This document shows, piece by piece, positions 32,065-33,029 of a stretch of DNA of 64,000 nt. Position numbers and translations under genes: made by a program. Below the pieces are notes generated by a model. That model was not told the origin of the DNA. It did no database searches and saw only the letters and a program-made list of their open reading frames with translations. Numbering within the stretch: the first letter of the stretch is position 1; each line of letters opens with the position of its first letter. The stretch comes from Halodesulfovibrio spirochaetisodalis (GTDB lineage Bacteria > Desulfobacterota > Desulfovibrionia > Desulfovibrionales > Desulfovibrionaceae), in contig NZ_JXMS01000002.1 of NCBI RefSeq assembly GCF_001672295.1, positions 62,001 to 126,000 of the forward strand. The letters run 5' to 3'.

Positions 32065-32096
32065 AAAAACCTCTGCAATATCGCGGAGGTTTTTTT
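32065..32096 (+). terminator. terminator after the 31063 gene
   Basis: AAACCTCTGC and GCGGAGGTTT pair with one internal mismatch around AATATC and are followed by a T-run. Confidence 0.85.
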
Positions 32097-32246: not shown

Positions 32247-32951
32247 ATGCTGAAACCCGATGCGGAAATTACACAGAAGATAACTTCTGTTGTAAAAAGA
32301 AAATATAAAAACGTAGCAGAATCACTCACTAATCAGTTTAGATATCCAACGGGAAAAGAAGGACTACAAGGACTTGGGTACCCCGAAGAACTGATTGAAG
32401 TACTGCCTGACGATGTGGCAAAGTGGTACTGTGGGGTAGGAAATCCTCTTTCGCTCAGCCCAATTGAATCTGGAGAAAACGTTCTGGATTTGGGATGTGG
32501 TGCTGGTGTGGACAGCATTTTGGCTGCTAAATTGGTTGAACCGTTAGGAAGTGTTGTGGGCGTCGATTTGTCAGAAGAAATGATAGAACGTGCTCTGCGC
32601 AACAAAGAGCTTGCTGAGGCATCCAACGTAACATTTCAGACAGTGGACGATACCGAATTACCCTTTGAAGACGGTCAATTTGATGTTGTTACAACCAATG
32701 CCATGTTGAATCTGGTTGTTGATAAAGTTCGGATGATACAAGAGGTATTCAGGGTTTTGAAAAAAGGTGGCCGGTTCCATATTGCTGATCAGATTCTCGT
32801 TGGTGAAGCAATGTCTCAGGAACAGGCTGTTGAAAGCTGGTTTAAATGACAAGGTGGAGCCATACCGGAAACGGAGTTTCTGGCACTACTTAACGAAACA
32901 GGCTTTACCAGTGTAACCAAGGTTGCGGAAACGGGCTGGAAAAGCTCTGAT
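32247..32951 (+). CDS. ArsM-like SAM methyltransferase, probable selenoprotein (Sec at residue 201)
   Basis: This methyltransferase has YCGVGNPLSLSPIESGENVL and the SAM-binding LDLGCGAGVDSILAAK, then GVDLSEEMIERA, FDVVTTNAMLNLV and FRVLKKGGRFHIAD, all typical of arsenite-methyltransferase relatives. The frame meets TGA at 32847-32849 after ESWFK, yet coding sense continues: QGGAIPETEFLALLNETGF. In relatives the corresponding motif is W-x-x-C-x-x-G-A, with a conserved cysteine exactly where the TGA falls. A hairpin suited to a bacterial SECIS follows. I therefore read the TGA as selenocysteine, giving 234 residues to the TGA at 32949. A further oddity: near the end the frame slips, and reading one base on from 32944 gives the expected tail SSDVTMGMLFFAVK to 32988. 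It could be a decaying gene; I favour a selenoprotein. Confidence 0.65.
32865..32883 (+). promoter_or_regulatory. candidate bacterial SECIS hairpin
   Basis: CCGGAAAC, loop GGA, and GTTTCTGG form an 8-bp stem with one G-U pair. The loop begins 24 nt after the TGA and starts with G, which fits the usual bacterial SECIS geometry (loop 16-37 nt downstream with an early G). Flanking bases can extend the stem imperfectly (GCCA with TGGC, alternative pairing). Confidence 0.55.
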
Positions 32952-32996
32952 GTAACAATGGGGATGTTGTTTTTTGCTGTAAAGTAAACACGATGA

Positions 32997-33029
32997 AAGG
33001 ATGAGCAAACTGCTCATCCTTTTTTTAAT
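32997..33029. terminator. shared bidirectional terminator
   Basis: AAAGGATGAGCA-AAC-TGCTCATCCTTT is a perfect 12-bp stem followed by T-run on the plus strand. It lies between the convergent methyltransferase and secreted-protein genes and overlaps the latter's stop codon. Confidence 0.85.

Follow-up and report, generated by a model that had tools for sequence, protein, structure and literature searches.

Does a TGA inside the reading frame of a gene related to the arsenite methyltransferases (ArsM) encode selenocysteine (Sec), and, if so, what would such an enzyme methylate? These questions are raised by a methyltransferase gene in the window, by which we mean the whole 64,000-nucleotide stretch of DNA analyzed here.

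An in-frame TGA in a gene under purifying selection

The frame that begins at 32247 on the plus strand is open up to a TGA at 32847-32849 and from there onward to a TAA at 32985-32987. Based on this open frame, on the ArsM fold of its product and on its relatives, we assigned the gene to 32247-32987; when read through, it yields a class I SAM-dependent methyltransferase of 246 residues with one Sec, residue 201. A preliminary description of the locus had placed the TGA within the motif ESWFK-TGA-QGGA, where we also find it. It had further counted 33 codons past the TGA and ended the gene at 32951; the frame in fact runs on for 45 codons (32850-32984). Inverted repeats and T runs on the plus strand, seen by eye, flank the gene at 32068-32096 and 32996-33022, as if it were transcribed alone; of the two repeats, our scan lists only the latter, on the minus strand. 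A promoter scan gave 2 sites, compared with 2.4 in shuffles.

We searched 149 family genomes with the read-through protein and found the TGA in all 28 of the best places, the window's included. Exactly one TGA was present in 27 of them; the remaining place, in a genome that is 66% complete, has two and is broken after the first. The 27 family relatives share 41-77% identity with the window protein. Within the genus the gene was found in six of nine genomes, again counting the window's, and its absence from the other three indicates that it is dispensable. A profile of 25 sequences was then run against 395 phylum genomes. Among the matches listed, 25 places scored at least 244 bits, each with one TGA (three of these are members of the search profile itself), after which the next score drops to 203 bits. 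No version of the clade with cysteine instead of Sec was seen, either among these listed matches or among the best places in the 149 family genomes. A contig scan gave 80 loci with best-segment identities of 27-49%. Homology continues beyond the TGA, which aligns with a cysteine of the homologues. In 32 aligned sequences, window included, the TGA is present in every one and the alignment is free of gaps from the TGA onward. The relatives thus share one stop at one site, rather than the unrelated stops at various sites that the preliminary description had named as a sign of decay.

A plain pseudogene, or a 200-residue protein ending at the TGA, was nonetheless considered, given that the standard code reads TGA as a stop and that decay does occur in this group: in L126, one of the relatives, the sequence becomes scrambled within a few residues of the TGA. 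Such a reading has to contend with the TGA in 28 of 28 best family places and with purifying selection on the codons that follow it. In six sequences of one genus (15 non-independent pairs), pooled pN/pS was 0.23 upstream of the TGA and 0.29 downstream, and pS was 0.70 and 0.46, respectively; less synonymous change downstream is expected if the RNA is also constrained. In addition, the modelled ArsM fold continues to the end of the protein, with block pLDDT values of 82-98 over the final 45 residues, and the RNA hairpin described below covaries. On these four grounds we rejected a pseudogene or truncated protein, which we regard as very improbable.

Several other copies of the gene deserve mention. 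Those at L126 (genome G130) and L129 (G038) are apparently broken by frame shifts, and G038 also holds a copy without a frame break (L128). Proteins of genus g38 (L127, L128, L130-L133) have a methyltransferase domain lengthened by inserts of tens of residues, with the TGA and hairpin intact. At L186 (G356), an ArsM-like gene with a cysteine-rich end, CCCCS-TGA-S, reads in frame into a second methyltransferase; this TGA may simply end the first gene ahead of the next, or it may belong to a further Sec protein.

SECIS-like hairpin and selenocysteine machinery

Bacterial SECIS elements are hairpins found close after the TGA, with a short loop that contains G. Judged by this rule, the window has a hairpin of the bacterial form at 32865-32883 on the plus strand, closely 3' of the TGA: CCGGAAAC-GGA-GTTTCTGG, in which 32865-32872 pairs with 32876-32883 (8 pairs, one of them G-U) around a GGA loop at 32873-32875. 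The stem length and loop had been given correctly in the preliminary description; the distance of 24 nt from the TGA that it gave is that to the start of the loop, not of the stem. In isolation the hairpin has an energy of -7.8 kcal/mol (z -2.95). Single-sequence folding returned it from 19-nt and 33-nt pieces of the window RNA, whereas a 48-nt piece took a different structure, so the argument for the hairpin comes from comparison and not from energy alone.

This comparison covered the 32 aligned sequences, with L134-L136 left out as members of the other Sec group and L126 as broken past the TGA. The hairpin is kept in all 32, with 8 of 8 pairs in 30 and 7 pairs in the other two. Pairing was found in 99.2% of cells, compared with 22.9-64.6% when the partners were slid by one to three columns, and RNAalifold, unaided, gave exactly these 8 pairs. 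Cells changed on both sides numbered 22 versus 6.4 in shuffles, none of 500 being as high. Two of the five covariation measures were not above the shuffled control, namely pairs with a double change (3, reached in 132 of 500 shuffles) and further pair types (7, reached in 199 of 500).

As a control for hairpin energy we used synonymous recoding with protein and codon use held fixed, again without L126. The mean z was -2.05 in 51 places that lack both partner cysteines of the arsenic site (see below) and -1.82 in 16 Sec genes that keep both, versus +0.15 in 32 Cys homologues. Values of -1.5 or lower were found in 36 of 51, 9 of 16 and 0 of 32, respectively (Mann-Whitney p 3e-13 and 2e-6). Taken one sequence at a time, the codon tests are weak, with P of 0.04 for the window and up to 0.20 for others.

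The genes that the preliminary description proposed to look for, selA, selB, selC and selD, have their counterparts in the genome, an assembly of 3.61 Mb in 59 contigs, listed as 99.2% complete, with the window on contig C12. We found selA (626 bits, cut-off 268), selB (401 bits, cut-off 242), selD (352 bits, cut-off 125) and a tRNA-Sec (84.6 bits, cut-off 47), the last also called as tRNA-SeC with anticodon TCA by ARAGORN. The selD gene itself contains one TGA, near its N terminus (AAG-TGA-AAK, that is AAGUAAK in one-letter residues), so an in-frame TGA at an expected Sec position occurs in at least one further gene of the genome. The tRNA-Sec model has one more match, barely above the cut-off at 47.6 bits, about 12 kb before the window (G000:C12:50148-50235, plus strand); this is perhaps a tRNA-Ser.

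Readthrough at UGA is known in general, and the codon could instead be read as Trp or Cys by suppression, without SelB. One genome, G109 (490 contigs, listed as 100% complete), would suit this explanation, as it has the gene and the hairpin and no selB above cut-off (best 69 bits). Against it, of the 31 family genomes in which the clade gene occurs, 29 have selB above the cut-off, the hairpin signal is found in Sec genes and is absent from the 32 Cys homologues, and the residue aligns with Cys and not with Trp. Simple readthrough was rejected for these reasons, and we give it next to no weight. Since G109 is split into 490 contigs and sister genomes of its genus do have selB (for example G025, G143 and G133), its missing selB is likely to be an assembly gap. 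G145 (75% complete) also has the clade gene and no selB above cut-off (best 182 bits).

The sequence evidence for Sec at the window TGA is therefore strong: the residue stands at the conserved ArsM cysteine, as the preliminary description had put forward, the relatives have the same TGA, and the machinery is present. Its predicted insertion at residue 201 is, in our judgment, almost certain.

Fold and residues of the arsenic site

The AlphaFold model of the protein has a mean pLDDT of 92.7. Sec201 sits in its least certain inner stretch, where the blocks over residues 181-210 score 75-82. Foldseek ranked As(III) methyltransferases in places 1 to 7, and VIA-align gave Z scores of 24.0 (6cx6), 23.9 (4fr0) and 23.3 (5evj), followed by a different enzyme at 20.9. 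As other enzymes of this fold class reach Z 19-21, the fold alone names no substrate. The window protein combines the ArsM fold with a SAM-binding motif. It shares the fold with CmArsM, CrArsM and human AS3MT (Z 19-24), and is shorter, at 246 residues versus 300-333 in their solved chains.

The arsenic-binding cysteines of CmArsM are, as we take the numbering to be, Cys72, Cys174 and Cys224, which agrees with C72A and C224A entries among the Foldseek structure matches. In the alignment to ArsM structures, Sec201 falls on Cys224, the catalytic chalcogen position of CmArsM and CrArsM. The place of Cys72 is taken by Val64 (codon 32436-32438, plus strand) and that of Cys174 by Ala152 (32700-32702, plus strand), so that, unlike CmArsM, CrArsM and human AS3MT, the window protein lacks two of the three arsenic-binding cysteines and has Sec for the third. 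Valine is invariant at position 64 in 25 sequences, window included, and position 152 is Ala or Gly in the clade rows. The 25-sequence alignment, made without L126-L136, contains a single invariant Sec, and its sole invariant cysteine is Cys84 of the SAM-binding GCG motif, a position at which a few further clade rows have Ser.

The preliminary description had called the protein ArsM-like and suggested that Sec would alter its As(III) chemistry. The label is preferable to ArsM. The chemistry is not supported as put, since Cys72 and Cys174 have been lost in all clade places read, and arsenite cannot be bound by the canonical three thiolates. There is good reason to think, then, that this is not a canonical arsenite methylase.

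Loss of the partner cysteines across the clade

We read the three site positions in 121 aligned rows and dropped 19 partial ones, among them the long-insert proteins of genus g38 (L127, L128, L130-L133), one second domain of L186 and the broken copy L129. Both partner cysteines are lost in 54 rows, and all 54 have TGA at the third place; L126 is counted here and in the tree below. These rows represent 52 distinct places, as L160 and L166 duplicate L123 and L157. In 48 rows both partners remain, and the third place is Cys in 32 of these and Sec in 16. These counts are not frequencies, since a TGA was the reason for fetching the 16 Sec rows, and the lack of a stop the reason for fetching 24 of the 32 Cys rows. 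Since the Cys side was thinly sampled, we read 80 further no-stop rows (79 new places, L331 being a repeat of L218). All 80 have Cys at the third place and 79 keep both partners; in the 80th, L300, the first Cys is shifted by a gap and the partners are kept by eye.

A tree of 100 rows, with duplicates removed and without the 80 extra rows, sets the 52 places that lost both partners apart by a branch of 100/100 support and groups the 16 Sec rows that have both cysteines with the Cys enzymes. Both the tree and the site counts cover the rows fetched among the matches listed. Within this sample, predicted Sec occurs in two settings, one an otherwise canonical ArsM and the other a group in which Sec stands alone. 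In the latter, the predicted Sec is the only chalcogen left of the old arsenic site, its two partners being lost clade-wide among the places read.

Relation to known selenoproteins

Sec-containing ArsM-like proteins and curated families in which they are fused to further domains are already known. The fused families and related selenoproteins are referenced to Haft and Gwadz (2023) and to Haft and Tolstoy (2025). A Sec-containing arsenite S-adenosylmethyltransferase (PRK11873/NF008823) has been listed since 2008, and the enzyme appears in PMC2398784, PMC9312934 and PMC5029168 (in the last with 39 and 41 in two number columns, which we take to be organisms and genes). Cys72 and Cys174 are present in the 16 Sec rows that group with Cys ArsM, whereas the window clade has lost both.

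Three curated families have the methyltransferase domain in common with the window protein: NF041537 (arsenite methyltransferase/AhpD domain selenoprotein), NF041536 (arsenite methyltransferase/DUF2284 domain selenoprotein) and NF047649 (methyltransferase/UXPK-star double selenoprotein). The match of the window protein spans the first 247-248 positions of these families, at 266-299 bits; the protein stops after residue 246, without the AhpD, DUF2284 or UXPK tail. It has one Sec, versus two or three in the fused families, and shares their UxxG motif, which PMC13188914 gives as the Sec form of the arsenite methyltransferase family. Its scores lie below all three cut-offs (299 of 510 bits for NF041537, 299 of 575 for NF041536 and 266 of 460 for NF047649), whereas one fused relative for each family (L165, L163 and L176, in the same order) scored above (605, 591 and 506 bits, respectively) and falls in the window clade. 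The window gene is thus a stand-alone member outside the reach of these models and, as no NCBIfam selenoprotein cut-off is passed, annotation based on cut-offs would probably leave it as a truncated methyltransferase of 200 residues.

Genomic neighborhood

No metal or arsenic genes were found among the three scanned neighbors of the window gene. A 322-residue gene upstream and a 220-residue gene downstream have no family match, and the next neighbor past the latter encodes a quinone-oxidoreductase-like protein. A comparison of neighborhoods within the genus shows the same gene order around the methyltransferase in five further genomes, namely permease, 322-residue unknown, methyltransferase and, on the other strand, 220-residue unknown. 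We looked for a conserved operon around the stand-alone gene in the window and in 19 larger (L141-L159) and 16 smaller (L121-L136) family loci, and none emerged: beyond the genus, neighbors recur mainly within single genera. The cluster that holds the window's response-regulator gene does recur in several loci, and pools a broad protein class. In genus g29, a pair of genes resembling DUF47/PiT phosphate transporters by eye lies just upstream of the Sec methyltransferase at L122, L124 and L158, and a transporter gene occupies the same upstream place at L123.

Upstream of distant fused relatives, an ArsR-family regulator and a VTT-domain gene lie in two genomes (G416, at two loci, and G376), and a VTT gene lies in G251. 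Within a few kb of some fused relatives there are MerR-type regulators of 140.9 and 144.8 bits, just below the mercury MerR cut-off of 150.85, and a heavy-metal P-type ATPase. By analogy, and borrowed for the window gene from these relatives only, such neighbors would point to a soft metal or metalloid. Two MerR-type regulators fused to a thioredoxin-like domain were also seen, within about 6 kb of fused Sec methyltransferases (L235:1798-2613 and L236:12306-12992, both on the minus strand).

Substrate and mechanism

Considering the findings together, we think it likely from the sequence comparisons that the window encodes a stand-alone Sec methyltransferase of ArsM fold in which a lone selenolate would act on a soft substrate with one bond to offer. 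In the mechanism that we propose, SelB, guided by the hairpin just past the UGA, would insert Sec at residue 201. The lone selenolate would then hold a soft metal or metalloid with one bond left, such as dialkyl-arsenic(III) or alkyl-mercury, and SAM would methylate either the held substrate or the selenium itself as a relay. Arsenite held by three thiolates would not be a substrate, and selenium may have been retained because one ligand does the work of three. The role of the selenolate as ligand for a soft substrate is a tentative part of this proposal, to which we give slightly less than even weight. According to PMC3877260, the number of binding cysteines is three for arsenite, two for methylarsenite and one for dimethylarsenite; by ligand count, a site with a lone Sec thus suits a substrate of the dimethylarsenite kind.

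Might the protein still be a true arsenite methyltransferase, with Sec201, Cys62 and a small thiol such as glutathione in place of the three-cysteine site? Sec does align with Cys224, the closest solved structures are CmArsM and CrArsM (Z 23-24), and NCBIfam calls two of the three fused families arsenite methyltransferase. Cys62 (codon 32430-32432, plus strand), two residues away from the former Cys72 position, is a common residue, with Cys in 45 of 53 rows; however, it is Val in 5 and Ala in 3, and with 8 of 53 rows changed it is not a fixed partner. Moreover, the equivalent of Cys174 is lost in every clade row read, and its counterpart in the human enzyme is presumably Cys156. PMC3877260 reports that human Cys156 is required for both methylation steps. 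The three scanned neighbors, furthermore, are not ars genes, and the protein scores 170.4 bits versus a cut-off of 263 for NF008823. An arsenite methyltransferase thus appears unlikely; the name is probably wrong for this clade, and the substrate is probably something other than arsenite.

A further explanation is that Sec is itself the methyl acceptor, with a methylseleno group that is passed on to a partner protein or metabolite, or that serves as a methyl sensor. The single invariant Sec, with Cys84 as the sole invariant cysteine in 25 sequences, is in line with this idea, and the extra Sec-bearing C-terminal parts of the fused relatives could receive or reduce such a group. Yet no AhpD-type part was matched in trans in ten genomes of the genus, the window's included, in a search that had no positive control. 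We consider this explanation about as improbable as that of a true arsenite methyltransferase, and continue to favor the lone selenolate on a soft substrate.

More broadly, these proteins may form an obligately selenium-dependent methyltransferase clade, distinct from the arsenite methyltransferases. In such a clade, a single selenolate would have taken over from a three-thiolate metalloid site and would work by itself, either as the only ligand or as a methyl carrier, on a so far unnamed substrate. This is a suggestion that we advance with some reserve, judging it a little less probable than its opposite. If true, the NCBIfam label 'arsenite methyltransferase' for the fused members would be wrong. 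The clade-wide loss of both partner cysteines is the more interesting part of our findings, as it provides a natural contrast: where the partners are gone, Sec is predicted in 52 of the 52 places read, and where they are kept, either Cys or Sec is found. The clade thus makes it testable what one selenolate does where three thiolates are otherwise needed, and on which metal or metalloid it does so.
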